45,294 bases of DNA from Acidobacteriota bacterium (lineage in GTDB: Bacteria > Acidobacteriota > Terriglobia > Terriglobales > Acidobacteriaceae). Below are positions 14,446 through 43,279 of the stretch, one piece after another. The stretch is taken from NCBI GenBank assembly GCA_028876335.1, contig JAGWSG010000041.1, positions 1-45,294 of the forward strand. The letters are read 5' to 3'. The notes beneath the pieces are model-generated. The model did no database searches. It saw nothing but the letters and a program-made list of their open reading frames with translations, and had not been told where the DNA came from. A program made the position numbers and the translations under genes. Position 1 is the stretch's first letter. Each line of letters opens with the position of its first letter.

Positions 14446-14451
14446 TATAAT
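14446..14451 (+). promoter_or_regulatory. Consensus -10 box directly before ntrY start (leaderless mRNA likely)
   Basis: TATAAT ends 6 nt before the ATG at 14458, so transcription should begin at or next to the A of the start codon. There is no Shine-Dalgarno sequence and no clear -35 box. This is the best example of a pattern seen at several starts in the window. Confidence 0.55.
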
Positions 14452-14457
14452 CGCCGC

Positions 14458-16725: not shown

Positions 16726-18077
16726 ATCACATTCTTGTGGTTGACGATGAAGCAGAGATACGCACTGCGCTCGAGGAGATTCTGCGCGAAGAAGGCTACG
16801 GCGTAACCACGGCGGCCAATGCCGCAGAGGCTCGAACACGGTTGGATGACGCACCTTACGACGCGGTATTTCTTGATATCTGGCTCCCTGACCGCGATGG
16901 GCTTGATGTGCTTGGCGAAATTCACGAACAGGCGAGCAACGTACGTCCAGAAGTGATCATCATCAGCGGGCACGGGACGATTGAATCAGCAGTGAAAGCA
17001 ACGAAACTGGGCGCATTTGACTTTCTTGAAAAGCCTCTGTCGATCGAACGAACTCTGATAGTACTCAAGAACGCGGTAGAAGCTCGTCGTCTGCGCACGG
17101 AGAATCTTGAATTCAAGCGCCAGTTCAGCGTAAGCGCGGTTCTTACCGGCGAAAGTGTACCGGTGAAGGCGCTGCGCCAGCAGATTCGACTCATGGCGCC
17201 AACCAATGGACGCGTTTTGATCTACGGCGAGTCGGGAACTGGCAAGGAACTGATTGCGCGGGCAATTCATGCGGAAAGCCTGCGGCGCGATCGCGTCTTT
17301 GTTGAGCTGAATTGCGCTGCAATCCCCGAAGCTCACATTGAAGCGGAGCTGTTTGGGTATCGCCATGGTGCACAGCCCGGCGGGCCCACAGAGCAGCGCG
17401 GAACCTTGGAACGTGCTGATGGGGGATCGCTCTTTTTGGACGAAGTGGGAGACATGAGCCTGAAGACGCAGGCGAAGGTGCTGAGCGCTTTGGACGACCA
17501 GCAATTCACGCCTGTCGGTGGCACACAGGCGTTACAGGTGGATGTGCGGCTGATTGCTTCCACGAATAAGAATCTCGAAGAAGAAATTGCGAAGGGCAAT
17601 TTTCGCGAAGATCTTTTTTACCGGCTGAATGTAGTGCCGTTTTTTGTTCCGCCGCTGCGCGAGAGGAAGGAAGACATCCCACTGCTTGCTCGGGAATTTC
17701 TGAGCGAATATGGTCGCCAATACGGCCGGCCGAGAATGGAGATCAGCGAGGAAGCCCTTGAAGCACTTGGCCGCTATCACTGGCCGGGGAACGTGCGTGA
17801 GTTGAAAAACGTGATTGAGCGCGTACTGATCCTCAATCCACGGACTCTCCGCATTGAGCGCAAACACTTGCCGCCACTTACGCACAAGGCCAGTGTGCGA
17901 CAGACGGAAGAATTTTCGACCCTGCAACAGGCGCGCGACGCCTATGAGCGCGAATACATTTTGAAGAAAGTGGATGAGGCGCGCAACAATATCAGCCGTG
18001 CGGCTGAATTGCTGGGGCTTGAACGGAGTCATCTCTATCGCAAGATGAAGGCGCTGGGTATCAGTGTGCGCGAATAG
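16722..18077 (+). CDS. ntrX: NtrX-type response regulator lacking the GAFTGA loop
   Basis: Response regulator of the NtrC class. The 451-aa protein has a receiver domain (phospho-acceptor Asp52 in VFLDIWLPD), an AAA+ domain with Walker A GESGTGK (169-175) and Walker B LFLDE (237-241), the arginine-finger region NFREDLFYRLN, and a C-terminal Fis-type helix-turn-helix (SRAAELLGLERSHLYRKMKALG). The loop that contacts sigma-54, GAFTGA in standard family members, reads GAQPGG at 216-221, followed by PTEQRG. ATP binding looks intact, but opening of sigma-54 promoters is unlikely. NtrC-family proteins with this loop lost (for example TyrR and Rhodobacter NtrC) act with sigma-70. The gene overlaps ntrY by 4 bp (ATGA). 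Confidence 0.92.
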   Translation: MNHILVVDDEAEIRTALEEILREEGYGVTTAANAAEARTRLDDAPYDAVFLDIWLPDRDGLDVLGEIHEQASNVRPEVIIISGHGTIESAVKATKLGAFDFLEKPLSIERTLIVLKNAVEARRLRTENLEFKRQFSVSAVLTGESVPVKALRQQIRLMAPTNGRVLIYGESGTGKELIARAIHAESLRRDRVFVELNCAAIPEAHIEAELFGYRHGAQPGGPTEQRGTLERADGGSLFLDEVGDMSLKTQAKVLSALDDQQFTPVGGTQALQVDVRLIASTNKNLEEEIAKGNFREDLFYRLNVVPFFVPPLRERKEDIPLLAREFLSEYGRQYGRPRMEISEEALEALGRYHWPGNVRELKNVIERVLILNPRTLRIERKHLPPLTHKASVRQTEEFSTLQQARDAYEREYILKKVDEARNNISRAAELLGLERSHLYRKMKALGISVRE

Positions 18078-29668: not shown

Positions 29669-31684
29669 ATGCCATTTATTGAACAATACGATGTGGCCGT
29701 GGTGGGCGCCGGGCACGCCGGGTGTGAAGCAGCCATGGCCGCTGCGCGCATGGGGCTGAAGACCGCCCTCATTACCATGAACCTCGACCTGATTGCCCAG
29801 ATGAGCTGTAACCCCGCGATAGGCGGCGTTGCCAAAGGCCATCTGGTCCGCGAGGTGGATGCTCTGGGCGGCATCATGGGCGAGGTCGCCGACGCAGTAG
29901 GTATTCAATTCCGGCTTCTGAATACTTCGCGGGGTCCTGCTGTGTGGAGTCCTCGCGCCCAGTGCGACAAGCAGCTTTACCGGGTGAAAATGCGTGAGGT
30001 TCTTGAGGCTCAGCCCGACCTGCACATCCGTCAGGCTGAAGTTATCGATCTGGTGATAGAAGAGCAGGGAATCGAGAGTGGGGATCAGCATACGGAGCTG
30101 GGTGAACTTCCCCGGCCGGAATGCAAGCACGGCCGTATCACCGGACTCAAACTCCGCGATGGCCGCCGTCTGATGGCAGGTGCCACCATTATCACCACCG
30201 GCACATTTCTGAATGGCCTGATTCATTGCGGTGAAGAACGCTATCCTGCAGGACGCAGTGGCGAGCCGGCGTCCGTTCTTCTGGGTGAAGCGCTACGCCG
30301 CCTCGGCCTGCGTACATGCCGCCTGAAGACAGGCACGCCGCCGCGGCTTGACGGACGCACCATTCACTGGAACCGCTTTGAGGAACAGCCCGGCGATGCG
30401 GAGCCGACGCCCTTCAGCTTCCGTACAAAGAAGATTGTGCAGCCGCAGGTGAGCTGCCACATTGCCTTCACCACGCCGGAGACACTGCAGCTTATCCGCG
30501 AGAACGTACACCGTTCCGCTATGTATTCCGGGCAGATTGAAGGCATAGGTCCGCGCTACTGCCCTTCAATTGAAGACAAGGTCGTGAAGTTTCCTGACAA
30601 GGTGCAGCATCAATTCTTTCTTGAGCCGGAGGGTCTCAACACGCACGAGGTTTACGTTAACGGCATGTCGACCTCGCTGCCCATGGAAGTCCAGTGGCAG
30701 ATCGTGCATTCGATTCCCGGACTTGAAGATGCGGAAATGCTGCGTCCTGGTTATGCCATTGAGTATGACTCGGTGGACGCAACGGAACTTGACCGCACGT
30801 TGCGCGTGAAGTCTTTTACAGGGCTTTATCTTGCAGGCCAGATCAACGGAACAAGCGGGTATGAAGAAGCCGCCTGCCAGGGCATCATGGCCGGTATCAA
30901 TGCCGCGCTGTGGCTCAAGGGTGAACCGCCCTTCACCATGGACCGCACAGAAGGCTACACCGGCATCCTTATTGACGATCTCATCTCGAAGGGCACTAAC
31001 GAGCCTTATCGCATGTTTACCTCACGTGCGGAGTTTCGCCTACACCTGCGTATCGATAACGCGGATCGCCGCCTGACACCGCACGGGCGCCACCTCGGGC
31101 TCATCGGCGACGAAGCCTGGGCCGACTACGAAGCAAAGCAGAAGCGGATGATCGCCCTTGAAACACTTCTGCGCACGCGCAAGGTGGATGCAGATGGGCT
31201 CTCCGCCGCAGGCTTCGGCGCTCTGAATGCAACGGCGGGTCTGACCTGGGCGCAATTGCTCAAGCGGCCTGAGGTAGGCATCGAGCCGGTGCTTCAGGCC
31301 GTTCATGGTGTGCTCGCGGAAGATCCGGAGCTCGTCGACTTCACGCGCGTAGCCGAGGATGCAGCCCTGCATCGTGCGGTCCTGCATAACGAAGCGCGCG
31401 CCGTCGAAACTGAAATCAAGTTCGCGGGTTATCTTGAGCAGCAGAAGAAATCCATCGAGAAGCTGAAGGCTGCAGAGGCGGTCACAATTCCCGAGTGGCT
31501 GGAGTACAGCGTGATCAGTGGACTTTCGCGCGAAATGCGCGAGAAGCTGGAGCGCGTGCGTCCCTCCACAATCGGCCAGGCAAGTCGCATTCCCGGCGTA
31601 ACGCCCGCGGCGCTCTCACTGGTGCATGTCTCCATAAAGGTGCAGGGCGCGCAACGGACAGCTACTTCAAAAACTGAGAATTGA
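29669..31684 (+). CDS. mnmG: tRNA uridine-5-carboxymethylaminomethyl modification enzyme MnmG (GidA)
   Basis: FAD-dependent subunit that, with MnmE, modifies U34 of several tRNAs. The 671-aa protein has the FAD-binding [12 protein letters not shown] at the N-terminus, the [23 protein letters not shown] signature in two parts, [12 protein letters not shown], and the C-terminal helical domain ([15 protein letters not shown]). It is a little longer than E. coli MnmG (629 aa), with extra residues around 125-150. TACAAT lies 8 nt before the ATG. mnmE is not in the window. Confidence 0.97.
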
Positions 31685-31709
31685 GGCAAAGTCAGGTGTA
31701 CAGTGAGGC

Positions 31710-32894
31710 ATGCACGCACACAAGACTGTACTTCTTGCCGCACTTTTTGTGGTTTCACTGTCCCCTTGTGTTGCTCAAAACAAGGCAGAGTTTCGCGCGC
31801 GCGATCTTGGAGTTCCATTTGATGGAACGCCTGGTCCGCTTGATGCAATTACAGATGTGGCCGGCGTTGAAGTCGGCACCACCACTCTCATTAGCGGTGA
31901 CGGGCCACTCAAGGTTGGCATCGGCCCCATTCGTACAGGCGTGACAGTAATCTTTCCGCGGCCCAAGTTCAACGTGGACCCGGTTTATTCAGGCTGGTTC
32001 AGCCTGAACGGTAACGGCGAAATGACCGGAACTACCTGGGTTGAGGAATCGGGTCTCCTCTCCGGTCCGGTCGCAATCACCAATACTCATAGTGTCGGCA
32101 TAGTCCGCGACTCGATTATTGCTTGGGCGGTTGACCATCATTTAATGAAGGAAGATGAGTGGTCGCTGCCTGTGGTTGCGGAGACCTGGGACGGCTGGCT
32201 GAATGACATCAACGGTTTTCACGTGCATAAACCGGATGTGTATGCAGCGCTGGATGCAGCGCGTCCCGGGCCGGTGCCGGAAGGCAACACTGGTGGTGGC
32301 ACCGGTATGGTGTGCTACGGCTTCAAAGGCGGAACAGGTACAGCGTCGCGTGTGCTAAGCAAAAGCGATGGCGGCAATACCGTGGGTGTTCTGGTCCAAT
32401 GCAACTGTGGCAGACGCGCACAGCTCACCATTGCCGGTGTTCCCGTGGGCAAATTGATGCCAGGTAGTGAGCCGTACGCGCAGTTGCATCCCAATGCCCG
32501 ACCCGGCGACGATTCGCAAAGCGACGTGGGTTCCATCATCATTGTGGTGGCAACCAATGCTCCTCTGCTGCCGCATCAGCTCAAGCGACTTGCGCGCCGA
32601 GCATCACTTGGTCTGGCGCGCACAGGTTCGGTTTCCGGCAACGGCTCCGGCGACATCTTTATCGCGTTCTCCACAGCCAATCCTCACGCGGACCATCCAC
32701 CTGGACCAAACACAGTGCAAACGGTGTCGAACGATCGAATTACGCCATTATTTACCGCGACTGTAGAAGCCACCGAGGAAGCAATTGTGAATGCCATGGT
32801 CGGCGCGAAAACCATGACAGGCCCAACCGGACACACCGTCTATGCTTTGCCTCAGGATAGGCTGCAGCAGTTGCTCAATGAGTACAAGCGCTAG
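31710..32894 (+). CDS. Secreted S58 (DmpA/BapA-type) aminopeptidase
   Basis: Ntn-type self-cleaving peptidase; family members release N-terminal D- or L-residues or beta-amino acids. The 394-aa precursor has a signal peptide (HKTVLLAALFVVSLSPCVAQ). The family landmarks DAITDVAGVEVG, ITNTHSVGIVRD and GNTGGGTGMVCYGFKGG are present. The autocleavage site and nucleophile are Gly-Ser275 in SDVGSIIIVVATNAPLL. TACAGT ends 5 nt before the ATG. It follows mnmG after 25 bp, but the products are not obviously related in function. Confidence 0.92.
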   Translation: MHAHKTVLLAALFVVSLSPCVAQNKAEFRARDLGVPFDGTPGPLDAITDVAGVEVGTTTLISGDGPLKVGIGPIRTGVTVIFPRPKFNVDPVYSGWFSLNGNGEMTGTTWVEESGLLSGPVAITNTHSVGIVRDSIIAWAVDHHLMKEDEWSLPVVAETWDGWLNDINGFHVHKPDVYAALDAARPGPVPEGNTGGGTGMVCYGFKGGTGTASRVLSKSDGGNTVGVLVQCNCGRRAQLTIAGVPVGKLMPGSEPYAQLHPNARPGDDSQSDVGSIIIVVATNAPLLPHQLKRLARRASLGLARTGSVSGNGSGDIFIAFSTANPHADHPPGPNTVQTVSNDRITPLFTATVEATEEAIVNAMVGAKTMTGPTGHTVYALPQDRLQQLLNEYKR

Positions 32895-32916
32895 TTCTGT
32901 CCAGATTTATGGATTC

Positions 32917-33489
32917 TTATTTCTGCTTGTCGTCCCGTCTTAAGACGGCTGGCAAATGGAAAGCGTGGTTGGATTTGGATCCATTCTTACCCTTTTCCGT
33001 CGAATCTTCGCGCACAAGTGTGCGTTGGGAGTTCATGCATACCCAACGGCCACGCAGCCTCTGAAAGACATGCGTAAATACGCCTTTATCGTCCACAGGG
33101 CCGTCTTCCGTCTGGTGGTGAAGAACGTAGGTTCCATTGATGACTGCGGCGTCGCCAATAATGCGCACGGTGATGACTTTCTGTTTCAGCCATAACGATT
33201 TATCGTGACCCGAAATCAGATAAGCAACCATCTGGTTGCGTGTGGAGATGTCGCCTGTAGCCGCCACGTCGACAAAAAGCGGTGAAAGTACCAGTTCAAG
33301 GCCATATTGGTCACGCGTATTGATCGCGTTGGACCACGCATCCTCAACTTTTTGAAATTCTGCAAGCGACTGGGGTGACGTAGACATCACGTTGGTCTGC
33401 AAAGGGGCGGCTAATGCAGTGCGGGAAGACGCTCCAAATGCGGCGAATCCAAGAATTGTGAGGAGAATAGAACGAATCATGAAGGCCAA
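32917..33489 (-). CDS. Secreted SnoaL/DUF4440-like protein
   Basis: A 190-aa protein with a signal peptide (residues 1-28, ending near ALAAP) and an NTF2-like fold typical of DUF4440/SnoaL proteins: FQKVEDAWSNAINTRDQYGLELVLSPLFVDV and the later strands VITVRIIGDAAVINGTYVLH and GRWVCMNSQRTL. A Lys/Asn/Ser-rich tail of ~25 residues follows. The function is unknown; such proteins bind or turn over small hydrophobic molecules. It ends 22 nt after the peptidase gene on the other strand and lies 78 bp past the Crp/Fnr gene. Confidence 0.8.
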   Translation of the reverse strand: MAFMIRSILLTILGFAAFGASSRTALAAPLQTNVMSTSPQSLAEFQKVEDAWSNAINTRDQYGLELVLSPLFVDVAATGDISTRNQMVAYLISGHDKSLWLKQKVITVRIIGDAAVINGTYVLHHQTEDGPVDDKGVFTHVFQRLRGRWVCMNSQRTLVREDSTEKGKNGSKSNHAFHLPAVLRRDDKQK

Positions 33490-33567
33490 TTACTCCCTTA
33501 GAAAATCATAGCTCCCCGCGCCGCTAGTGAGAGCTATGGCCGGCGTCCGCAGGAGAAAAATTTTCAG

Positions 33568-34332
33568 TTAAAGAAGTGATTCGAGAGCATAGGAGTTCTC
33601 GATTTTGATCATGGCCTTGCGAATCGATATCCAGCCCTTTTTTCTGAATTGGCCCAGCGTGCGAGTGACTGTTTCTCTTGTGGTCACGGCCATTGATGCC
33701 ATTTCTTCATGTGTGAGTAACTGCGGAAAACTCACTTTCCCATCAACATCCCGCATGCCTATCTGCTGGCCAAGATCTACTACAAGACGTCCCAGCCGGG
33801 CCGCCACAGATTCAGGACCTGCAATGCGGCAGGTAGACTGCAGCGCGAAGCGATATTCAAATCCCAGGCACCGCGTTGCGCGCACTGCTGCTTCCTGATG
33901 CGTTGCAAGAAATTGCAGAAAAAGGCTTCTCTCAATTGGTTTGATCTGGGATACAGTCAGTGACTCTGCGGAGACTTCATGGACGCCGTGGTTCAGCACC
34001 GCGTAAAGCCCGAGCATGGTGCCCGGACTGGCAACCCGTACCACAGTTTGTCTTTCTCCAGGTCTTCCAACGGAGAGCTTCAGATAGCCGTTGCAGACTA
34101 CGTAGACGCAGCGAGCTTCCTCGCCTTGCGTGAAGAGAGTTGTCTGTGCGGGGAGATAAGTGGTCGCCGCAATCAGATCCCTCTCCGTCTGTATGGCGTC
34201 TCCCAGAGAGCAGAACCATCCTGATCGTGTCTGATCGCAGGCCGCGCATTCAACAGGTGAGTCATCCGCAAGGCGTATGCTTCTTCGTCGAGTGGTTCTG
34301 ACAAGCTGGGGTTCTTCAATTAGTGCGCCCAT
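33568..34332 (-). CDS. Crp/Fnr-family regulator with N-terminal cysteine cluster
   Basis: Transcription factor of 254 aa, divergent from the cytochrome operon. It has an N-terminal Cys29-x2-Cys32-x8-Cys41 set, like the FNR layout though with different spacing, a cNMP-type beta-roll (LPAQTTLFTQGEEARCVYVV...), further Cys75 and Cys80, the dimer helix, and a winged helix-turn-helix near 205-235. The recognition helix reads R-E-T-V-T-R (219-224). It keeps the CRP residues Arg, Glu and Arg that read TGTGA, and differs from FNR (V-E-T-I-S-R). Two such TGTGA palindromes lie between this gene and the cytochromes. The cysteines could hold an Fe-S cluster or act as a thiol switch; that is inference. 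Confidence 0.9.
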   Translation of the reverse strand: MGALIEEPQLVRTTRRRSIRLADDSPVECAACDQTRSGWFCSLGDAIQTERDLIAATTYLPAQTTLFTQGEEARCVYVVCNGYLKLSVGRPGERQTVVRVASPGTMLGLYAVLNHGVHEVSAESLTVSQIKPIERSLFLQFLATHQEAAVRATRCLGFEYRFALQSTCRIAGPESVAARLGRLVVDLGQQIGMRDVDGKVSFPQLLTHEEMASMAVTTRETVTRTLGQFRKKGWISIRKAMIKIENSYALESLL

Positions 34333-34417
34333 AGTTTCCGTCCTCAGGCGATCGAATCAGGTGCCGAGAACCGCAATACGAGCTCATGTCAATGGTAGAT
34401 TGCGATACACAACACTT

Positions 34418-34431
34418 TTGATCAATATCTG
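34418..34431. promoter_or_regulatory. Weak FNR-like half-palindrome
   Basis: TTGAT-CAAT-ATCTG matches the FNR consensus TTGAT-N4-ATCAA at 8 of 10 positions. It is nearest the regulator gene. Such a match can arise by chance in AT-rich DNA, and the recognition helix of the neighbouring protein favours TGTGA instead. Confidence 0.25.
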
Positions 34432-34459
34432 AGTGTCGCGGAGAAAGTGTTTTCTCTGC

Positions 34460-34475
34460 TGTGACCAAGCTCACA
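34460..34475. promoter_or_regulatory. Perfect CRP-type operator TGTGA-N6-TCACA
   Basis: TGTGACCAAGCTCACA is a full match to the CRP core palindrome. Its centre (34467.5) is 125 bp from that of the second site, close to twelve helical turns, and 135 bp upstream of the regulator's ATG. It could serve autoregulation or looping. Confidence 0.65.
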
Positions 34476-34584
34476 TTCCATCAAGGAGCATTTTTCAGCG
34501 GTGTTTCCAGCATTTCCAAAGCAAAGGTTAAAGCCTGCAGCCAAATTTTTGGTTTCGATCTCCAAAATGAACGATTTGTAACCC

Positions 34585-34600
34585 TGTGATGGGAGTCACG
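34585..34600. promoter_or_regulatory. Second CRP-type operator TGTGA-N6-TCACG
   Basis: TGTGATGGGAGTCACG matches the CRP core at nine of ten positions, centre 34592.5. A TAGGAT -10-like box at 34622-34627 predicts a start near 34634, about 41.5 bp from this centre, the standard class II activation distance. This suggests direct activation of the cytochrome operon. Confidence 0.6.
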
Positions 34601-34621
34601 GGTTTTTGAGTGCAAAAAACA

Positions 34622-34627
34622 TAGGAT
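34622..34627 (+). promoter_or_regulatory. Candidate -10 box of the cytochrome operon
   Basis: TAGGAT about 32 bp downstream of the second CRP-type palindrome's centre, with no -35 box, as expected for an activator-dependent promoter. It implies a leader of about 150 nt before the ATG at 34782. TATGTA at 34650-34655 is an alternative. Confidence 0.35.
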
Positions 34628-34781
34628 GCTGAGTGTGAAACGAACTTTGTATGTATCGGGTTCGGATTTAACGTCGAAACAGAAAGCGCTGGGCATCTTT
34701 GTGCGTTGAAAGCAAGATGGTTACGCTTGATAGTTCGATTTGGGTTGCAGGTAGTAGTAATTGAGTTTGAGGTGGCTATTG

Positions 34782-35717
34782 ATGCAGAACTTCATGATTT
34801 CAACACTAAAGAGAATGTTTCCTGCCGGGCCGGTTTCCCGCTGGGGATTGAAGACTGGACTGGTTCTCCTGGGAGCGGCCTTGGTGTTCGCTGTCCCGGC
34901 TGGCGCTCAGCAGAAGGATACGGCTTCGAACGGATTCGTGGGCTCAGATACGTGCGCGACCTGCCACGAGGATGTGGTTAAGGGCTTTGCGTCAAACCCC
35001 CACGTAAAAATGGCGGAGATGCATGGCAAGAATGGAATTACTTGTGAGAACTGCCATGGACCGGGTCAGGCACACGTAGAGGGCGGCGGCGACAAGACCA
35101 AGATCTTCAATCCGGCCAAGGCGCCCGCCAAGGAGGTTGATGCCAAGTGCCTGAGCTGCCACGCCGGTGAGCATGCAAATTTTGCGCGTTCTCCGCATGC
35201 CAAGGCAAACGTCAGTTGCATTGATTGCCATAGCGTCCACGCATCGAAGGCTGACGCCCATTTGCTGAAGGCTTCTCAGCCAGCATTGTGCTTCCAGTGC
35301 CACTCCGATGTGAAGCCGGCGTTCAACATGCCTTTCCACCACAAGGTGAATGAAGGCCTGGTGAGTTGCTCGGACTGCCACAACCCTCACGGCACCTTCG
35401 GTCCCAACAATCTCAGGTCCACTGCGGACATGAACGCAGTTTGCACAAAGTGCCATACCGATACGCGTGGACCATTTGTGTTTGAACACGCTGCGGTCAA
35501 GGCGGAAGGCTGCGTCGGCTGCCATACACCTCATGGATCGCAGAACGCGCGCCTGCTGAATGTGCCGAATATCAACGCACTCTGCAATCAGTGCCATAGT
35601 CCGGTTGCCAATGCAACCGTTCACGGACTGGATGCAGGTTCTGCCTCGCAAAACTCGTGCATTGATTGCCACACCATGATTCACGGTTCAAACCTGAGTC
35701 AGGCCTTTATCCGCTAG
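34782..35717 (+). CDS. Decahaem c-type cytochrome, DmsE/MtrA family
   Basis: Periplasmic multihaem cytochrome that sits inside an MtrB/PioB-type barrel and passes electrons across the outer membrane. I start at the ATG at 34782, with GAGG 10 nt upstream; a TTG 21 nt earlier is in frame. The 311-aa precursor has a signal peptide (cleavage after about VPAGAQ) and exactly ten CxxCH motifs (first Cys58), with many extra His-containing HGS/HNPHG/HTPHG pieces that supply axial ligands. The ten haems, the length and the repeat of two pentahaem halves match MtrA, DmsE and PioA. The following gene encodes the matching barrel. The electron direction (export to metals or oxidation of Fe(II)) cannot be told from sequence. 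Confidence 0.95.
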   Translation: MQNFMISTLKRMFPAGPVSRWGLKTGLVLLGAALVFAVPAGAQQKDTASNGFVGSDTCATCHEDVVKGFASNPHVKMAEMHGKNGITCENCHGPGQAHVEGGGDKTKIFNPAKAPAKEVDAKCLSCHAGEHANFARSPHAKANVSCIDCHSVHASKADAHLLKASQPALCFQCHSDVKPAFNMPFHHKVNEGLVSCSDCHNPHGTFGPNNLRSTADMNAVCTKCHTDTRGPFVFEHAAVKAEGCVGCHTPHGSQNARLLNVPNINALCNQCHSPVANATVHGLDAGSASQNSCIDCHTMIHGSNLSQAFIR

Positions 35718-35733
35718 GTGCACAGGAGCTGCT

Positions 35734-35762
35734 GGTGCCAGGACTCTCATGAGCCTGGCACC
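35734..35762 (+). other. Intercistronic hairpin (mtrA-like/mtrB-like gap)
   Basis: GGTGCCAGG and CCTGGCACC form a 9-bp perfect stem around an 11-nt loop that itself contains CTCATGAG. No T-run follows, so it probably affects RNA processing or stability rather than ending transcription. Confidence 0.55.
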
Positions 35763-35814
35763 GTTCAAAGGGATCACGTCGCAGGGAGCGACCTTAGTTA
35801 AGTGAGGCTTCATT

Positions 35815-38409
35815 ATGAAGAAAATGATTCAGATTTCGCAGCTGACAAGCGGATTGCCCATTAGAGGCATCGCTTGGAATGCCGCCGTGGGTCTCGGGAT
35901 AGGAGCATTGTTGGCTTTGTCTGGAGCAGTTATTGCCCAGGCACAGGAAGCTGCAACTGAAAACCAGCCGGCACCGACACACTTTACCGTGCCGGAAGGA
36001 TTTTCAAGCCACGCTACCGTTGATGTTGGCGGGCACATATCCTCGGTGACGGGTAGTCCTGCCATGTACAGCACACTGGTCAATCAACAATCGGGTCCGC
36101 GTATCCTGGGTCAGACATTCCGGATGCGCGCTTTGCCGGGGACGAAACACACCTGGGTTGACTCGCTCACTGCAGTGAGTGGTGGATTTGGTGGTGACCC
36201 CGTATCGTTCGCTCGCCTGGACTTCTCAAAGGGAACGACATATGACTTCTCTGGAGTCTTCCGCCGCGGCCGGCAGTACTTTGATTACGGCCTGCTAGGC
36301 AATCCCAATATTGCTCCAGGCAAATCGATACCGATCGGTCCAAGCGCTTCGCCGACCGGAAGCATCCCCTGGGGACCGGTGAATCACTCGTCGGTACTGT
36401 TTAACACCGTACGACGCATGACTGACACAAGTCTGACCATCCTGCCCGTGGCTCGGGTTACTTATCGCTTTGGCTATGCCCAGAACGTCATGGAAGGTCC
36501 AACGCTGAGTCCGAGTTACACGATTATGAAGTACAACGCGCTGCTCCGGCAGTATCAGAGGAACAGCACGGACGACTTCTCGGGAGCCATTGAGTGGAAG
36601 CCGGTACCCACAACACGGCTGACCTACGAAGAGCGCATTACCCACTACAAGGCGGACAGCTTCTTCACGCTGGATCCGAATGGTTTCCTTGTGCAGGAAG
36701 CCGATGGCACGCCGGCATATTTGGGTAACTGGAACAGCCAAAGCCCGTATTCATCCAGCGCCTGCAATGCAGCCAGCATGGGTGGCGGAGACATGCTATC
36801 ACCTGCCAACACATCGGGTGGATTGCCGATCATCAATCCGGCCTGCTCTGTGGTGACAAGCTATACGCGTACGCAGCCAACGCGAATTCTGACTCCAACT
36901 TCCATCTTTCGTTTGCAGAGTTCGAGTATCAAGAACCTGACGATGAACGGCATGATCAGCTATACGCGTGGCAACATGAATTTGCCTGCGTACTATGAAG
37001 ATGTGCAAGGTCTGAATACCGGTTCGACCAGCGCCGTGCGTGAAAGCACATATTCTGGCGGCTATGCTTCAGCGCATCGGTCGGTAACCTCCGTGGACTT
37101 TGGCGTGGTATGGCAGGTGGCACCCGCCTTCAGTCTCGCGGATCAAATCGATTATTGGAACATCCAGGAACCGGGGACATCTCTGGTACCTGCACCGGCG
37201 ACACTGTCGACCCCGGGTGCCCCGAACCAGACCATTACCTATACCGGGCCATTGACACCCGGAACCGGTTCTTTGCCGCACGGTATCGATGGAGTATTGA
37301 AGCCGAATTTCTATGGCGACAAGATGACATCGAATCTGTTTACGGCGAGCTGGGATGTAAATCCACGGGTGCACTTTGCCCTGGGTTATCGCCACAAATC
37401 GCAGCGCATCTCTCAAGGTGAGCCGCACAATATTCCGATTCCCGCAGAAGAGAACGATCCCATCAACGGTTACGTGAACATTGCAACGGATGGCGGCATC
37501 CTCAATGTTGCGCTTCGCCCGACGGCAAAATGGGATGTCAACGGCACGATTGAAATCGCCTATTCTGACAATGCATTCACGTCAGTGAGCCCACGGCAGT
37601 TCAAGCAATATCGCATTCACACAAAGTACCGTCCAACCAAGTGGGCCATTCTGAACGGTTCGTTCAGTGATCGTGAGAGGCATAACAATACCTTCAATAA
37701 CCAGATCGATCAGGATGCGGACGACTACATCTACCAGGGACCGCTGGATCATGTTGACCAGAGCCGCTGGTTCGGTGTGGGGGCTTCGCTTGCGCCAAGT
37801 GAGAAGTTCTCTATCGATATGAACTACGGTTACAACGACGTCTACACGGCGACTAATATTTGCTTCACCAGTGCTGCTAGCGCAACACAGGCTGGCACCG
37901 CAACCACCAGGCCAGACGGAACACCGGCGATATGCCCAGGCATCTTCGCTCGTGGTTCGACGACAATCCTTGTGGACTGGTTCGCGCGCGACTTTATGGA
38001 TGCGCCAACTCAGTTTGGAAATGTGGCACTGAGCGTTGAACCCCTGAAGAAGATTAGGGCGGACCTTGGCTACACAGTCAGCTCGGTCAACGGGAATCAG
38101 TTCTTTACTGATGCCCGCGCCGTCAATGGCTCACTCGCCTCAACTTACCAGTCTCCGTTTGTCAAATTGGCCTGGACCTTGCGCCCTGGTCTGACATGGA
38201 AGGCGGAGTACAACTTCTATGGATATGGAGAAGGTGGTGCTTCCGGTGCGCAGTACTGCAGCACTTCAACATCTCCAACAGCAACAATCGTGCCTTGCGC
38301 CGACATGACGCTGGCAACCGGCCGTAATGCTCCAACTTCGGCTGGATACACCGCGCCACGCAACTTCCACGCGAATAACGTGACGTTTGCAATGCGCTAC
38401 GAATTCTGA
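35815..38409 (+). CDS. MtrB/PioB-family outer-membrane beta-barrel
   Basis: Outer-membrane sheath for the decahaem cytochrome. The 864-aa precursor has a signal peptide (cleavage after about IAQAQ), a short N-terminal part, then beta-strand-rich sequence with alternating residues to a terminal Phe (FAMRYEF), as in MtrB/PioB. Family features seen are the early DVGGHISSVTG strand, FRRGRQYFDYGLLG near 140, and a C-terminal half of long strands. The CxxC near the N-terminus of Shewanella MtrB is missing; the few Cys residues lie in predicted loops. It is 97 bp from the cytochrome gene, with GAGG 9 nt before the ATG. The family is diverse, so I rely on both sequence layout and the adjacent decahaem gene. 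Confidence 0.88.
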   Translation: MKKMIQISQLTSGLPIRGIAWNAAVGLGIGALLALSGAVIAQAQEAATENQPAPTHFTVPEGFSSHATVDVGGHISSVTGSPAMYSTLVNQQSGPRILGQTFRMRALPGTKHTWVDSLTAVSGGFGGDPVSFARLDFSKGTTYDFSGVFRRGRQYFDYGLLGNPNIAPGKSIPIGPSASPTGSIPWGPVNHSSVLFNTVRRMTDTSLTILPVARVTYRFGYAQNVMEGPTLSPSYTIMKYNALLRQYQRNSTDDFSGAIEWKPVPTTRLTYEERITHYKADSFFTLDPNGFLVQEADGTPAYLGNWNSQSPYSSSACNAASMGGGDMLSPANTSGGLPIINPACSVVTSYTRTQPTRILTPTSIFRLQSSSIKNLTMNGMISYTRGNMNLPAYYEDVQGLNTGSTSAVRESTYSGGYASAHRSVTSVDFGVVWQVAPAFSLADQIDYWNIQEPGTSLVPAPATLSTPGAPNQTITYTGPLTPGTGSLPHGIDGVLKPNFYGDKMTSNLFTASWDVNPRVHFALGYRHKSQRISQGEPHNIPIPAEENDPINGYVNIATDGGILNVALRPTAKWDVNGTIEIAYSDNAFTSVSPRQFKQYRIHTKYRPTKWAILNGSFSDRERHNNTFNNQIDQDADDYIYQGPLDHVDQSRWFGVGASLAPSEKFSIDMNYGYNDVYTATNICFTSAASATQAGTATTRPDGTPAICPGIFARGSTTILVDWFARDFMDAPTQFGNVALSVEPLKKIRADLGYTVSSVNGNQFFTDARAVNGSLASTYQSPFVKLAWTLRPGLTWKAEYNFYGYGEGGASGAQYCSTSTSPTATIVPCADMTLATGRNAPTSAGYTAPRNFHANNVTFAMRYEF

Positions 38410-38468
38410 AGATGGATCGTAGATCCGTGAACAGAATCATGCAGTTAAGAACAACTTGAGTACAACCG

Positions 38469-38495
38469 TGGAACCCGGCAAATACCCGGGTTCCA
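38469..38495 (+). other. Intercistronic hairpin (mtrB-like/cytochrome gap)
   Basis: TGGAACCCGG and CCGGGTTCCA form a perfect 10-bp stem with a 7-nt loop, 60 nt past the barrel gene. No T-run follows. It may act as partial terminator or 3'-end stabiliser between the barrel and the small cytochromes. Confidence 0.6.
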
Positions 38496-38567
38496 TGCAG
38501 TTCACAAACAGGATTTAGGTGGTCACAGGGGACAGTGAGAGGTTTGCACCCAGAAGGAGCTTTCCAG

Positions 38568-38888
38568 GTGAGCACAAAATTAAGACTTGGGACTTTGATA
38601 TTTCTTGCGCTATGCGCACTCGCAACGGCACGGGCACAGAACGGCGGAAAAGATGTCTACACCGCGAAATGCCAGGGCTGCCATGGCGCGACCGGAATGG
38701 CTGATACCAATATGGGCAAAATGCTGAAGGTGAAGCCAGTAACGGACGCCAGTGTCAAGAAGATGAATTTAACAGAGATGGTCGACGCCGTCCGCAATGG
38801 TATGGGCAAGATGCAGGCGTATAAGGGTAAGTTGACGGATTCACAAATTAAGAGTTCGGTGGAGTATTTTCGAACTTTTGCAAAGTAG
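38568..38888 (+). CDS. Small monohaem cytochrome c (class I), copy 1
   Basis: Periplasmic electron carrier. The start is a GTG at 38568 (protein starts VSTKLRLG), with AAGGAG 8 nt upstream; an in-frame GTG at 38535 is less likely. The 106-aa precursor has a signal peptide (cleavage after about ATARA), one haem motif CQGCH and a Met-containing region (MGKMQAYKGKL) for the sixth ligand. It is a clear paralogue of the next gene (shared KAKC/TAKC, CHGA.G.ADT, KGKLT..QI...V.YFR). It may shuttle electrons between the inner-membrane cytochrome and the decahaem protein. Confidence 0.9.
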   Translation: MSTKLRLGTLIFLALCALATARAQNGGKDVYTAKCQGCHGATGMADTNMGKMLKVKPVTDASVKKMNLTEMVDAVRNGMGKMQAYKGKLTDSQIKSSVEYFRTFAK

Positions 38889-39002
38889 TGGAAAAAAGTA
38901 CGACAAAAACCGAGGCATCACGGTGCTGGCCGGGTTAATTATGGAGAGAGTGTTCAAAACGGCGCCAATAGCCGCGATAATGAACCTTGAAGGAGCGAAA
39001 AA

Positions 39003-39323
39003 ATGAAAATGTTGGTGCGATCGATGTTGATGCTGGCTGCGGGTGTTGCTTTTGCGGCCTCTACCTGCGCTGCCCAGTCTGCCGGCGCGGCAACTTACAA
39101 GGCGAAGTGCCAGATGTGTCATGGCGCCAAGGGAGAAGCCGATACACCTACCGCGAAGATGATGAAGGTGCTTCCGCTTTCTTCTCCGGAAATGAAGAAA
39201 CTCTCTGAAGCGGACATGGTCAAGTCCACTGAAAACGGTAAGGGGAAGATGCCTGCATTTAAAGGCAAGCTGACCACTGAACAGATCACGGAAGCCGTTA
39301 AGTACTTCCGCTCACTGAAGTAG
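39003..39323 (+). CDS. Small monohaem cytochrome c (class I), copy 2
   Basis: A 106-aa precursor with a signal peptide (cleavage after about STCAA), one CQMCH motif and GKMPAFKGKLT carrying the likely Met ligand. AAGGAG lies 7 nt before the ATG. It is a tandem paralogue of the gene 114 bp upstream. Differences around the haem (K-rich KMMKVLPLSSPEMKK against KMLKVKPVTDASVKK) suggest slightly different partners or potentials. Confidence 0.9.
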   Translation: MKMLVRSMLMLAAGVAFAASTCAAQSAGAATYKAKCQMCHGAKGEADTPTAKMMKVLPLSSPEMKKLSEADMVKSTENGKGKMPAFKGKLTTEQITEAVKYFRSLK

Positions 39324-39333
39324 TTTGACTGAG

Positions 39334-39356
39334 TCCGGCCCGAGGCACGGGCCGGA
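39334..39356 (+). other. Intercistronic hairpin (cytochrome/ImcH-like gap)
   Basis: TCCGGCCCG and CGGGCCGGA form a perfect 9-bp GC-rich stem with a 5-nt loop, followed by TCTT only. It lies 27 nt before the ATG of the next gene and overlaps no coding region. It might partly end transcription. Confidence 0.6.
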
Positions 39357-39382
39357 TCTTAATCCGCGGGGGCAGCAGGTTC

Positions 39383-40843
39383 ATGCTGGAAAAATTTCGT
39401 CAGAACTGGGTGCGACCGGCGCTGTTCTTCGGTAACAATCCCATCAGCCTTTTAGGCGGCGCCATCACAACCGCCGCCGGCGTCACGATGATCAGCTACT
39501 GGGTCATCGAGCTCTTCAGCCGGTCGATCAATAATCCTTATCTCAACATCATCTTTTACCTGATATTGCCTGCACTTTTCATTGTGGGCCTGGGATTAAT
39601 CCCCATCGGTGTATTTCTGCGCCGAAGGAATCTCAGAGCAGCGGGTGCAATTCCCTCCGAGTTTCCTAAAGTTGACCTCAACGACAGAATCTTTCGGCAC
39701 GGTGTTGATATCGTGCTCGTCGCCACCATTATCAATCTGCTTGTTGTTTCCATAGCTAGCTATCGTGGTGCAGCGTACATGGACTCACCGCAATTCTGCG
39801 GCCAGGCCTGCCATGTGATGAAGCCCGAATACACTGCATATTTGGTTTCTCCGCACTCGCATGTGGCCTGCGTTGAGTGCCATATTGGCACCGGAGCTGA
39901 ATCGTACGTCGAAGCGAAAATCAATGGCACCAAACAGTTAATTGAGGTTACTACTCATCCCTTTGCGCACCTTGCGCCAAACATCATTCCCAATTATCCC
40001 GAGCCAATTCCTTCTCCGGTTCGCAACCTTCGCCCCGCACGAGAAATATGCGAAAGCTGCCATACGCCCGATAGGTTCGTCGGTGAAAAACTGCTCGTAA
40101 AGTCAACTTTCGCTGATGATGAGCAGAATTCAGAGACACAGACGGTCGTTGTACTTCATCTTGGCGGTGTCGACTCGCTTTCTCATTTAACCGGCATCCA
40201 TGGAATCCATCTCGGTCACATCGAATACATTGCAACCGACGAGGAAAGACAGACCATTCCCTGGGTTGAAAAAACCAATGCAGACGGCTCCAAGACAGTT
40301 TTTGCGACCGCTGCATTGAAGGGCGCTACACCGCAAGGAGAGCGCCGGGTGATGGATTGCATTGATTGTCATAATCGTGCTGCCCACTCAATGCAGACTC
40401 CTGAAGATGCCCTGAATCGTGCCATGGCGGAAGGTGCAATCAGCCCCAAGATTCCCTGGGTGCACAAAGAAGGCATGGAACTGCTGAAGGCGACTTATCC
40501 TTCTCAGGAAGTCGCCAGCGAGAAAATCCCGGCAGAATTGATTGCATATTATCGTTCACAGCATCCGGAAGTTCTCACCACGCAAGCCAGTCTGGTGGAT
40601 GCGGCGGGTAAGGAGCTTTACAGGATTTACTCGCAAAACGTGTTTCCTTCAATGAAAGTTACATGGGGTACTCATCCGAACAATATTGGTCACATGAGTT
40701 ACCCTGGCTGCTTCCGTTGTCATGATGGAGACCACACGGCCAATGATGGCAAATCGATTCCTCAAGACTGTTCGGTCTGCCATAACCTGCTTGCGGTTGA
40801 TGAACCGCATCCGCAGGTTCTCAAGGACCTCGGCATCAATTGA
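39383..40843 (+). CDS. ImcH-like NapC/NirT-family inner-membrane multihaem cytochrome c
   Basis: Likely quinol:cytochrome c oxidoreductase that joins the quinone pool to the periplasmic carriers. The 486-aa protein has three membrane segments (about 21-44, 54-78 and 107-126), then a periplasmic part with six haem motifs: a CX3CH (Cys139) in CGQACHVMKPEY, and CxxCH at Cys163, 223, 326, 443 and 463. The NapC-like core is the first part. Geobacter ImcH, needed for electron transfer to high-potential acceptors, has three membrane segments and seven haem motifs; this protein shows six. It ends the operon, with a terminator 18 nt on. Confidence 0.88.
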   Translation: MLEKFRQNWVRPALFFGNNPISLLGGAITTAAGVTMISYWVIELFSRSINNPYLNIIFYLILPALFIVGLGLIPIGVFLRRRNLRAAGAIPSEFPKVDLNDRIFRHGVDIVLVATIINLLVVSIASYRGAAYMDSPQFCGQACHVMKPEYTAYLVSPHSHVACVECHIGTGAESYVEAKINGTKQLIEVTTHPFAHLAPNIIPNYPEPIPSPVRNLRPAREICESCHTPDRFVGEKLLVKSTFADDEQNSETQTVVVLHLGGVDSLSHLTGIHGIHLGHIEYIATDEERQTIPWVEKTNADGSKTVFATAALKGATPQGERRVMDCIDCHNRAAHSMQTPEDALNRAMAEGAISPKIPWVHKEGMELLKATYPSQEVASEKIPAELIAYYRSQHPEVLTTQASLVDAAGKELYRIYSQNVFPSMKVTWGTHPNNIGHMSYPGCFRCHDGDHTANDGKSIPQDCSVCHNLLAVDEPHPQVLKDLGIN

Positions 40844-40860
40844 CTATCAAATTTGATGAT

Positions 40861-40895
40861 GAAGGGTAGCCCAAAGGAGCTACCCTTCTTGTTTT
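40861..40895 (+). terminator. Rho-independent terminator of the cytochrome operon
   Basis: GAAGGGTAGC (40861-40870) and GCTACCCTTC (40879-40888) form a perfect 10-bp stem with an 8-nt loop, followed by TTGTTTT. It is the only hairpin in this gene set with a proper T-run, 18 nt past the last stop codon. Confidence 0.85.
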
Positions 40896-40954
40896 CATGC
40901 CTTGTACGCAGGTATGGTAGGCTGGCTTTTCGATATTGAGGTGACTAACTTCTT

Positions 40955-42421
40955 ATGAGTTCCTCCCATCCCCTGCACTTCAATCTGATTGCCGCGGCAC
41001 ATGCGGCTATGATCGAGCGCGGATTTCAGCCAGACTTCCCGGAAGGAACTGAATCCGAGTTAAAAGAGATTTCCGCTGAGCCCCCCATCGGTGCTTCTGA
41101 TCAATTTCAGGATCTTCGTCACTTGCTTTGGTCTTCCATTGACAACGACACGTCCAAAGACCTTGACCAGATTGAATGGGCGGAACGCCTTTCGGATGGC
41201 CGTATTCGCATTCTTGTCGGCGTTGCTGATGTAGACGTACGGGTCGTGCAGGGCAGCATTATTGATAGTCACGCTCGTTCAGAGACCACTTCGGTGTATA
41301 CGGGTGTCAAAGTATTTCCCATGCTGCCAACTGAGCTCTCCGAGGGAATCACTTCGCTGAACGAGAACGAAGACCGTGCAGCTGTTGTAATTGAGTTCAC
41401 CATCAGCCCCGGCGGTTGCGTGGCAGACGGCAAGGCCTACCGTGCCATCGTTCGCAATCAGGCTCAGCTCGCATACAATTCGGTTGGCGAATGGCTGGAA
41501 GGCTCAGGTCCCGCTCCCGAGAAAGTCGCAGCCAACGCGGATTTGGCTGCGCAACTTAAGCTTCAGGATGAAGCCGCGCTCCATATGGTCGGCTGCCGCT
41601 TTCAACACGGGGCGCTCGACCTGGAAACTGTTGAGACTCGTCCAGTGATGCTCGCTGACGAAGCCGTCGATATTAAGAAGCTTCAAAAGAATCGCGCCAC
41701 TTCGTTGATCGAGGAATTCATGGTTTCAGCCAACGGTGTGATTGCACGAACGTTTGAGCAGGCCGGTGTAGCTTCAATCCGGCGCGTTGTCCGCACGCCA
41801 AAGCGCTGGGACCGCATTGTGCAGATGGCCGATGGGCTGGGGACGCATTTACCCCAGGAACCCGACTCCAAAGCACTGAATGATTTTCTTCTTGCCCAGC
41901 GCTCCAAAGACCCGGATCATTTTCCTGATCTCTCTCTCACGATTGTCAAACTGATGGGGCCCGGCGAATATGTGCTGGTCAGGCCTAATGAATCTTCACC
42001 GGGGCATTTCGGGCTCGCAGTGCAGGACTACACGCACAGCACCGCTCCAAATCGGCGATTTCCTGACATGGTGACGCAGCGGTTGCTCAAAGCACTCTTT
42101 GAAAAGAAGTCCCAGCCCTATTCGCAAGACGACCTGGAGGCAATTGCCCAGCGCTGCACACTTATGGAAGATGCCGCCCGAAAAGTGGAACGCGAAATGC
42201 AAAAGCGCATTGCCGCCGTTGTCCTCCATCCGCGCATTGGGCAAAGCTTCCGCGGAATTATCACCGGAGTAAATCAATATGGCACTTTTGTACGCACCCT
42301 CGATCCGCATGCGGAAGGAATGGTGGTGCGAGGTGGAAAGGGCCTGGATGTTGGAGACAAAGTTATCGTAAAGCTGGTTTCCACAAATCCGGAACGAGGC
42401 TTTATCGATTTTGCGGCGTAG
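40955..42421 (+). CDS. RNB-domain exoribonuclease (RNase II/R family), short form
   Basis: 3'-to-5' exoribonuclease family. The 488-aa protein has an RNB domain that starts almost at once (no cold-shock domains) and a C-terminal S1-like domain (FRGIITGVNQYGTFVRTLD). The active-site cluster reads SID63NDTSKD69LD71Q72. Aligned with E. coli RNase II Asp201, 207, 209 and 210, three Asp residues are kept and the last is Gln72. The most critical Asp (209 equivalent) is Asp71. The usual TAPNRRFPD/H motif is present (STAPNRRFPDMVTQRLL). Activity may be reduced or the substrate changed. It is separated from the cytochromes by a terminator. Confidence 0.87.
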   Translation: MSSSHPLHFNLIAAAHAAMIERGFQPDFPEGTESELKEISAEPPIGASDQFQDLRHLLWSSIDNDTSKDLDQIEWAERLSDGRIRILVGVADVDVRVVQGSIIDSHARSETTSVYTGVKVFPMLPTELSEGITSLNENEDRAAVVIEFTISPGGCVADGKAYRAIVRNQAQLAYNSVGEWLEGSGPAPEKVAANADLAAQLKLQDEAALHMVGCRFQHGALDLETVETRPVMLADEAVDIKKLQKNRATSLIEEFMVSANGVIARTFEQAGVASIRRVVRTPKRWDRIVQMADGLGTHLPQEPDSKALNDFLLAQRSKDPDHFPDLSLTIVKLMGPGEYVLVRPNESSPGHFGLAVQDYTHSTAPNRRFPDMVTQRLLKALFEKKSQPYSQDDLEAIAQRCTLMEDAARKVEREMQKRIAAVVLHPRIGQSFRGIITGVNQYGTFVRTLDPHAEGMVVRGGKGLDVGDKVIVKLVSTNPERGFIDFAA

Positions 42422-42436
42422 TGTTCAAGCAAAAAG

Positions 42437-43279
42437 TCAGCTGTGTGCCTGTTCACCGGCAGACGAGCCTTGCAGGTCGCTGCCTTTCGTGGAAGCGATG
42501 TTGCTGTCCAGGGCGGCCTGCGCGGTTGCTTTTTCGCCCGGATCTTCAATCCATAGACACACAATCCACCACACCAGCACCAGCAGATAGACGGCATTAT
42601 TGGCATTCATCAGCTTGTCAAACAGTCCAATCAGCCGTTCATATTCGGCCTGCGAATGCGGCATTGCATTCTTAGCAATCCATCCCCGAATGCCCTGAAG
42701 CGCGAGCTGCGAAATAGCCGCGGTCATGAGGCCAATCACGATGCGTTGTACGTGGCTATGCCAGCTGGAGCCGAACCTCCTGCCCAAAAGTAAAACAAGA
42801 ACACCCAACCCAATTGTCAGAACATCGGTCAGCAGCGTCATCTTTTGCGCCATCACTTGCATCAGCGTCAAGTGCGCAAGCAGTCCGTTCGCCGTGACTG
42901 CTTTCCATTGCGGCCAGGGACCCCAGAAAAACAACACGCCGCCACCCACAATCAGCAGGCTCGCAGTGAAGGTGATCCACCACTTCTTCTGTGCTCCCTT
43001 GAACCCTCTTCGCGCCATCTCCACCACAACCAGTACATCGATCACTGCGGAAATGTCCGCCATGGTGATGAAGATTTCGCCCATGGTGATTTGTGGGATC
43101 CTGCCGTAAAGCAGTCGGCTTGAGACCAGCCGTAGCGCCGCCAGTGCGATGCTGGCTGTAAACCAGGGAAAACGTTTCGTCCGTTCGCGCCCCAGCAGCA
43201 CCACGAGCAGAACCAAATGGGCGGCAAAAGTCAATATCCACAAAATCTGAACGGCGGTAAACGGAAAATTCCAGTGCAT
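42437..43279 (-). CDS. Integral membrane protein of unknown function
   Basis: A 280-aa protein with about seven hydrophobic segments: VQILWILTFAAHLVLLVVLLG at the N-terminus, then segments at about 34-52, 68-86, 101-120, 146-162, 175-195 and 228-244. The 35-residue cytoplasmic tail is hydrophilic. AGGA lies 6 nt before the ATG. No motif points to a function. It converges on the RNB gene with 15 bp between and has the tRNA-Arg gene upstream. Confidence 0.75.
   Translation of the reverse strand: MHWNFPFTAVQILWILTFAAHLVLLVVLLGRERTKRFPWFTASIALAALRLVSSRLLYGRIPQITMGEIFITMADISAVIDVLVVVEMARRGFKGAQKKWWITFTASLLIVGGGVLFFWGPWPQWKAVTANGLLAHLTLMQVMAQKMTLLTDVLTIGLGVLVLLLGRRFGSSWHSHVQRIVIGLMTAAISQLALQGIRGWIAKNAMPHSQAEYERLIGLFDKLMNANNAVYLLVLVWWIVCLWIEDPGEKATAQAALDSNIASTKGSDLQGSSAGEQAHS

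Follow-up and report, generated by a model that had tools for sequence, protein, structure and literature searches.

Acid soils and peat, whose iron and humics are able to accept electrons, harbour Acidobacteria in abundance, and how these bacteria exchange electrons with iron or humus is a standing question. The subject of this study is a cassette of cytochrome and outer-membrane barrel genes that addresses it, located in a 45,294-nucleotide stretch of DNA (here, the window; contig JAGWSG010000041.1, assembly GCA_028876335.1) from a member of the family Acidobacteriaceae. Several related systems have been described. In 2013, Lipson et al. drew attention to the decahaem cytochromes of Acidobacteria as candidate genes for iron reduction (PMC3669403), and Eichorst et al. 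listed mtrA and mtrB homologues in 2018, but no complete operons (PMC5900883). According to a 2020 bioanode study, a Holophaga genome encodes two porin-cytochrome complexes, of which one shows homology to MtrB, and these were put forward as the first probable complexes of the kind known from Acidobacteria (PMC7399161). Baker et al. reported an acidobacterial MtrCAB in 2022 and described no quinone oxidoreductase nearby (PMC8805035), and a 2023 study found homologues of PioA, PioB and PioC in the phylum (PMC10654088). Outside it, the Mto cluster of Sideroxydans lithotrophicus ES-1 consists of MtoA, MtoB, CymA/ImoA, the monohaem cytochrome MtoD and the further monohaem cytochrome Slit_2494 (PMC12016527). 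Literature searches that paired ImcH, DmsE, MtrA or MtrB with either Acidobacteria or gene clusters gave, among the matches listed, no paper whose title or abstract opening describes the operon reported here.

A probable porin-cytochrome conduit with an ImcH-type gate

Analysis of the open reading frames (ORFs) of the window showed a five-gene cytochrome and barrel cassette, with a divergent Crp/Fnr gene, at positions 33568 to 40895 (Table 1). Every gene listed there by a preliminary description of this DNA, including the Crp/Fnr gene divergent from the decahaem gene, was recovered by profile, motif and fold analysis. We consider the cassette to be a real, conserved porin-cytochrome conduit with an ImcH-type gate, through which electrons would be transferred. 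The same description had called the route complete, a term that we withdraw because the cassette encodes no surface partner.

The decahaem product scored 269.9 bits with TIGR03508 (curated cut-off, 192.2), which places it in the DmsE/MtrA family, and its closest solved relative was 6r2q_A of the Mtr complex (E 2.3e-38, residues 60 to 312 of 318), in agreement with the identity first proposed for it. In the sequence record, 6r2q_A is named Cystathionine beta-synthase, which looks like a mislabelling at the source. With NF041028 (GSU2203/OmcK family), the score was 218 bits, below the cut-off of 325 and outside that family. The protein has ten CX2CH motifs in 318 residues, while residue shuffles (n = 2,000) reached at most 2. 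Counting the window protein among 25 homologues, ten further histidines outside the motifs were conserved in 24 or more (the next one, in 21), enough for the predicted bis-His ligation of ten haems, as reported in the Mtr complex (PMC7198977). Since M8 of the ORF was nearly invariant among the 25 homologues, the internal ATG given in Table 1 is the likely start. This was the one decahaem protein over the family cut-off in the whole genome, and among 74 records of plasmid relatives none covered 80% of the query.

The barrel was recognizable by its fold. Searches of Pfam and NCBIfam gave no match up to E 0.01, and the best NCBIfam score was 11.6 bits with NF041027 (GSU2204 family), so that no curated sequence model assigned it to MtrB/PioB; the libraries hold further MtrB/PioB models besides this one. 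The GSU2204 family is listed as an MtrB/PioB-type barrel (PMC13188914), and NF041027 was matched by 13 of 31 aligned barrels, the window barrel not being among them. Its sequence had no match to solved chains up to E 1, and the single weak match of a barrel profile to solved structures (E 0.032) was unrelated and was discarded. However, a Foldseek search of the Protein Data Bank with the AlphaFold model (mean pLDDT, 70.6; pTM, 0.64) put 6r2q_B, the 26-strand MtrB sheath of 6R2Q, first by a wide margin (E 4.3e-14, TM 0.71 by target; runner-up, E 3.6e-9, TM 0.41). Re-alignment, which drew on Foldseek's own list and is not an independent search, gave a Z of 26.5 and an rmsd of 3.3 over 555 residues for 6r2q_B, the next fold having a Z of 16.7. 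The predicted fold therefore supports the MtrB/PioB-like barrel claimed at the outset, and barrels too diverged for sequence models can conceal such operons. A barrel that does not model around the decahaem protein had been named beforehand as a refuting outcome; the barrel by itself models as an MtrB-like sheath, which answers that point in part. At two loci (L076 and L079), the barrel was split over two or more ORFs, which may be frameshifts or decayed copies.

Profile and motif scans identified both small cytochromes as monohaem class I cytochromes c; for the first, the GTG at 38568, behind AGAAGGAG, is a likelier start than 38535. The last gene encodes the one ImcH-like protein found in the genome. 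ImcH has been defined by a CX3CH motif plus 5 to 9 CX2CH motifs and three N-terminal transmembrane helices (PMC6295460), and the haem motifs of the window protein (one CX3CH, five CX2CH) agree with that layout, bearing out its earlier designation as ImcH-like. A low-confidence model predicted long helices at residues 20 to 45, 52 to 86 and 102 to 133, and the hydropathy threshold of 1.6 was exceeded only near residues 60 to 72 and 112 to 121.

Conservation of gene order among relatives

We walked downstream from the barrel at 63 loci, of which 3 lacked a long barrel and 6 ended at it, leaving 54 that were informative. An ImcH-labelled gene lay in line, on the same strand, at 27 of the 54 (27 of 52 once L072 and L083, duplicates of L030 and L041, are removed), and gene-order conservation, a check suggested by the preliminary description, was in this way confirmed. 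Monohaem cytochromes stood between barrel and ImcH at 20 of these 27 loci; at one in-line locus, L087, the ImcH label belongs to an 8-motif protein with 40% identity. Nine of the 27 had an intervening multihaem protein with 11 or 13 motifs and four to six hydrophobic stretches. All nine matched the cytochrome b of contig C25 of the source genome (see below), and a cytochrome b561 domain was present in both of those scanned (L025 and L055), as it was at L085, outside the walk; we call the nine CbcL-like for these reasons. L050 and L063 add a 19-haem protein; that of the locus scanned gave a score of 58.4 bits with the MtrC/MtrF domain and may be a surface partner, which the window lacks.

Among 100 genomes of the same family (own genome included), 48 gave a match to the barrel, 52 to ImcH and 54 to the decahaem cytochrome. 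A barrel match lay within 2 kb of 53 of the 63 decahaem matches, and 29 of the 58 ImcH matches were within 12 kb of a decahaem match, 25 of them also with a barrel match (0.35 expected). A scan of named genomes gave 23 loci with the decahaem gene, including one in the isolate Occallatibacter savannae (L082), which has the gene order of the window; L029 likewise carries decahaem, barrel, cytochrome and ImcH in order. One of the 23 is titled Bacillota, and the others are acidobacterial by title except Sulfotelmatobacter, which we take to be acidobacterial too. The contig titled Bacillota (L086), with acidobacterial-type decahaem, CbcL-like and ImcH-like genes, is perhaps misbinned.

Four loci with the same surroundings (L044, L080, L081 and L082) had a barrel only 28% identical to that of the window versus 73 to 75% for ImcH. 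The decahaem cytochrome was divided along its length, with identities of 75, 73 and 73% over residues 58 to 110 in L044, L081 and L082 (67% in L080), and of 45 to 51% over residues 262 to 318 in all four. The barrel and the C-terminal part of the decahaem protein thus seem to have been replaced jointly while the regulator and gate stayed in place, for which plain linkage accounts, since the 3' end of the decahaem gene adjoins the barrel gene. We also considered a general split of the decahaem protein between ImcH and barrel. In 17 hand-picked loci, residues 58 to 200 tracked ImcH and residues 262 to 318 tracked the barrel. When the 27 in-line loci were taken together with the window, the correlation of the barrel was 0.79 with the decahaem C terminus and 0.67 with the N-terminal part, and that of ImcH was 0.49 with the C terminus and 0.87 with the N-terminal part. 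Without the four loci, the barrel correlated at 0.83 and 0.84 with the two halves, with no distinction; the general split is thus weaker than it first seemed, its barrel side having disappeared. Given that this co-variation rests mainly on four related loci, in effect one exchange, we no longer take it to show that the barrel encloses the decahaem wire.

Regulator and operator-like dyads

In all 13 orthologues of the divergent Crp/Fnr protein, four cysteines (C29-x2-C32-x8-C41 and C75) were invariant, marking a candidate redox or Fe-S sensor; the cysteine spacing of Escherichia coli FNR differs from this one. The recognition helix RETVTR, which we read as a CRP-type (TGTGA) reader, was also kept in 13 of 13. 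The FNR operator is TTGAT-N4-ATCAA, and an FNR-type operator was rejected, as the box TTGAY-N4-RTCAA occurred in none of the 13 control regions and a lone half-like site in the window was discarded.

The pattern GTGA-N6-TCAC, by contrast with its shuffled mean of 0.12 of 13, was present in every control region of the 13 loci with the regulator. When all 256 four-base half-sites were tried at the same spacing, the next best reached 3 regions, and the dyad at spacings of 3 to 5 and 7 to 10 was found in none. The window contains it twice (0.58 expected in its whole length), both times in the control region, and the preliminary description mentioned neither site. Because the dyad was found and counted in the same 13 regions, the 43 loci without a divergent orthologue provide a better test: 23 of them have it (22 upstream and 1, L062, inside the gene) versus 0.45 in shuffles, in a comparison that is only partly separate. 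Several of the 43 have other, weakly similar Crp-type genes nearby. The count used these 56 loci and omitted L037, L047, L060, L067, L072, L078, L083 and L086 as truncated, duplicate or otherwise unused. The window dyad at 34585 can form a hairpin of -11.3 kcal/mol, a stability that 7 of 200 shuffles reached, and we considered an RNA hairpin or terminator as the function of the dyad. Among 44 aligned sites, TTTT followed within 12 nucleotides in only 2 and a T preceded GTGA in 39, which makes a protein site likelier than a hairpin. The claim that the conduit has its own regulator is supported by the divergent gene and the conserved operator-like dyads before the operon, to which the regulator would bind.

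The extended pattern TGTGAY-N4-RTCAC was found at 15 places in the source genome (18 strand hits), and its reversed control at 2. Six of the 15 are next to genes that we read as respiratory or energy related: this operon, the 11-haem gene of contig C25, and genes for cytochrome bd subunit I plus protoporphyrinogen oxidase (L122), a cytochrome c assembly protein (L119), a radical SAM protein that is haem-enzyme related and below the haem b synthase cut-off (L123), and a phosphoketolase (L114). Among the others, one has a universal stress protein and a glycosyl hydrolase for neighbours, two fall inside ORFs (an oxidoreductase as called, and an ORF at a distance of 571 bp from a NuoF-like gene), and one is by a protein without a family. 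Read without a control gene set, the dyad-bearing genes look like a low-oxygen set and a possible regulon.

Other electron-transfer genes of the genome

Contig C25 carries a pair of genes for an 11-haem cytochrome and a cytochrome b (L104, positions 1433 to 3566), with the site TGTGACTCTGGTCAC upstream, whose products are 63% and 73 to 79% identical to the pair inside the conduit operon of L025 and L032. Elsewhere in the genome, a pentahaem gene is followed by a large gene, with a QrcA score below the cut-off, and we take the two to be an alternative complex III. NuoG and formate dehydrogenase are also encoded, being the two of four molybdopterin proteins over their cut-offs. The third, formate dehydrogenase/nitrate reductase-like, was below its cut-off, and the fourth, unassigned, scored 279 bits with dmsA (cut-off, 778). 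No match to RuBisCO was found in this 91%-complete genome, so autotrophy by the RuBisCO route is unlikely; at that completeness, all such absences are provisional.

Direction of electron flow and alternative readings

We infer electron transfer, its outward direction and acceptor, the binding of the regulator to the dyads and the signal sensed as follows. Electrons would pass from menaquinol to the ImcH-type cytochrome and then cross the periplasm by way of the monohaem cytochromes c, or by direct docking, to reach the decahaem cytochrome at its inner end. In the predicted complex, the MtrB-like barrel would hold the decahaem wire through the outer membrane, with its C-terminal haem end facing outside, where, no dedicated surface cytochrome being involved, it may pass electrons to Fe(III) in soluble or chelated form, to humic quinones or to another shuttle. 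The Crp/Fnr protein, probably a redox or low-oxygen sensor, would activate the operon from the TGTGA-N6-TCAC sites, alongside further functions for low oxygen. On balance, we favour an MtrAB-type outer-membrane conduit with ImcH as its gate, which low oxygen probably induces and in which electrons probably flow outward.

Several observations weigh against this. No ImcH was reached at the other 27 of the 54 walked loci, and the co-occurrence of decahaem cytochrome and ImcH (45 of the 100 same-family genomes have both and 39 have neither) is a count that ignores the relatedness of the genomes. The structure model of ImcH is poor (pLDDT, 47.5), too poor for a structure search. The dyad was discovered in the very regions where it was then counted in 13 of 13, and 9 of the 15 genomic sites lack a clear link, five of them by unscanned genes, in a tally without an enrichment control. 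The genome showed no surface cytochrome, its three MtrC/MtrF-domain matches scoring 19.9 to 20.7 bits (cut-off, 30). Class I monohaem cytochromes are usually of high potential, which fits an inward, Mto-like flow as well or better. Finally, the related species Occallatibacter bavaricus is reported not to have grown anaerobically (PMC12935467).

The preliminary description had left the direction open between outward flow and Fe(II) oxidation, and there is indeed evidence on both sides. Outward flow is favoured by the role of ImcH in the 2018 survey, where it is implicated only in quinol oxidation (PMC6295460), by the low-oxygen dyads and by the missing RuBisCO match. An inward conduit of the Mto/Pio kind, in which Fe(II), reduced humics or a solid donor would feed the decahaem cytochrome, the monohaem cytochromes and then an oxidase, while the ImcH-type protein would serve as a side branch towards the quinone pool, is on these grounds unlikely, even if dyads common to low-oxygen genes would also fit micro-aerobic Fe(II) oxidation. 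It draws its strength from the close likeness to the Mto cluster, which has the same classes of parts (PMC12016527), together with the monohaem class I cytochromes of the operon. No MtrC-type partner, moreover, was found in the operon or, over the cut-off, in the genome scan, and 27 hits to PioA/MtoA homologues have been reported from Acidobacteriia (PMC10654088). The CbcL-like additions of the relatives are neutral on direction because their family is known from both Fe(II) oxidizers and Fe(III) reducers (PMC6295460). Acidobacterium capsulatum has been credited with iron-reducing properties in micro-aerobic culture (PMC8790237).

A conduit that merely bleeds electrons to soluble oxidants (humics, chelated Fe) at low oxygen, serving redox balance and survival and not growth, we regard as rather improbable: the dyads do also precede genes for cytochrome bd, a universal stress protein and a phosphoketolase, and anaerobic respiration and fermentation are not typically observed in subdivisions 1 and 3 (PMC5900883), but conservation together with a dedicated quinone cytochrome and the dyads suggests more than a leak. 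It is very improbable that the cassette is an accessory wire for an extracellular DmsEFAB-type molybdenum reductase (of DMSO, iodate or similar) with catalytic subunits elsewhere, as the naming of the decahaem family after DmsE could suggest, since none of the four molybdopterin proteins of the genome is on this contig or over the DMSO-reductase cut-off and no reductase was recognized in the walked neighbourhoods, where unlabelled genes were unscanned; service to a DMSO reductase with catalytic genes nearby had been named beforehand as what would refute an electron conduit, and the contig carries no molybdopterin gene.

Beyond the outward, ImcH-gated conduit that we favour, we tentatively propose, with more doubt than confidence, that these operons form a separate acidobacterial class: an MtrAB-type conduit that is wired directly to ImcH (and, in relatives, to a CbcL-like protein as well, making two gates), that does without a dedicated surface cytochrome and is induced by a CRP-type sensor when oxygen is low, and whose outer half (barrel plus decahaem C terminus) is exchanged as a block while regulator and quinone gate stay in place. 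If true, such a class would explain the iron and humic reduction by soil Acidobacteria that genome surveys have left unexplained.

Genomic surroundings

The source genome amounts to 3.84 Mb in 236 contigs, the window being contig C217. Stretch 40855 to 40900, behind the ImcH gene, folds at -20.3 kcal/mol (z, -4.86), with none of 200 shuffles equally stable, so the operon does close with a terminator-like hairpin, as originally described. That hairpin rests on the folding test because a terminator scan of the window yielded fewer sites (5) than shuffles did (mean, 7.1). A promoter scan of the window was uninformative (4 found versus 5.6 in shuffles). An RNB-domain gene lies downstream of the hairpin.

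Table 1 Features of the conduit operon and its control region, with positions in the window
Feature	Position	Strand	Basis
Crp/Fnr-family regulator	33568..34332	-	HTH_Crp_2, 54.9 bits; cNMP_binding, 49.9 bits
CRP-type operator-like dyad TGTGACCAAGCTCACA	34460..34475	+	GTGA-N6-TCAC pattern
CRP-type operator-like dyad TGTGATGGGAGTCACG	34585..34600	+	GTGA-N6-TCAC; within hairpin, T5 behind
DmsE/MtrA-family decahaem cytochrome c	34761..35717 (likely start ATG 34782)	+	TIGR03508; ten CX2CH
Large outer-membrane beta-barrel, 864 aa	35815..38409	+	MtrB-like by predicted fold
First monohaem class I cytochrome c	38568..38888	+	CX2CH and conserved Met (GKM)
Second monohaem class I cytochrome c	39003..39323	+	Class I cytochrome c by profile scan
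ImcH-type membrane cytochrome	39383..40843	+	CX3CH (residue 139) and five CX2CH; predicted N-terminal membrane helices
Intrinsic-terminator-like hairpin, operon end	40861..40888	+	Folding test

The gene order of positions 29669 to 43279 (GidA, DUF4440, regulator, conduit, RNB-domain gene and a 280-aa membrane protein) is retained in L070, L081 and L082, which indicates that the conduit occupies a fixed chromosomal place; in L082, a peptidase S58 gene is also part of the retained surroundings. Elsewhere in the window, a PAS/HAMP sensor kinase gene is followed by one for a sigma-54-type response regulator (14431 to 18077), and the other eight genes scanned were cell-wall, housekeeping, metabolic or TonB-receptor-like.

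Comparison with known systems

The Mto cluster is the closest in layout, sharing with the window the decahaem cytochrome, the barrel, a NapC/NirT-related inner-membrane quinone cytochrome and two monohaem cytochromes (PMC12016527). Its quinone cytochrome is a tetrahaem protein, whereas that of the window is ImcH-type (CX3CH plus five CX2CH), and the window adds a divergent Crp/Fnr gene and has a barrel without a curated model match, with electrons possibly flowing in the opposite direction. The pairing of an ImcH-like entry with an Mtr/Pio conduit had been described as unfamiliar. For ImcH itself this stands, in that the 2018 survey by Zhong and Shi reports no mtrAB or mtoAB adjacent to imcH (PMC6295460); as to the layout it has to be qualified, the cluster of this Fe(II) oxidizer being so similar.

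With the MtrAB(C) of Shewanella, the window shares the decahaem family (TIGR03508) and the barrel fold (6r2q_B), but its operon lacks CymA and the MtrC/OmcA surface cytochrome that would make it an MtrCAB, and the barrel has diverged beyond sequence matching to any solved chain (up to E 1). GSU2203-GSU2204 of Geobacter (OmcK plus barrel) is related through the 13 of 31 homologue barrels that match NF041027 and the 218 bits of the window decahaem with NF041028, whereas the window barrel (11.6 bits) and decahaem (cut-off, 325) themselves fall short of these models. The MtrCAB of Bryobacterales (Group 5) is likewise an acidobacterial Mtr-type conduit, with MtrC and a tetrahaem cytochrome and no inner-membrane quinone oxidoreductase described nearby (PMC8805035), while the window has ImcH and no MtrC. 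CbcL homologues (MtrH/MtoC) of 7 species are found in mtrAB/mtoAB clusters, unlike imcH (PMC6295460). With the ImcH/CbcL systems of Geobacter, the window has the ImcH motif layout in common, and its relatives carry, in addition, a CbcL-like multihaem protein with a cytochrome b561 domain. An ImcH-linked conduit that is conserved and has its own control sites makes electron exchange of Acidobacteria with iron and humus directly testable in cultivated strains.

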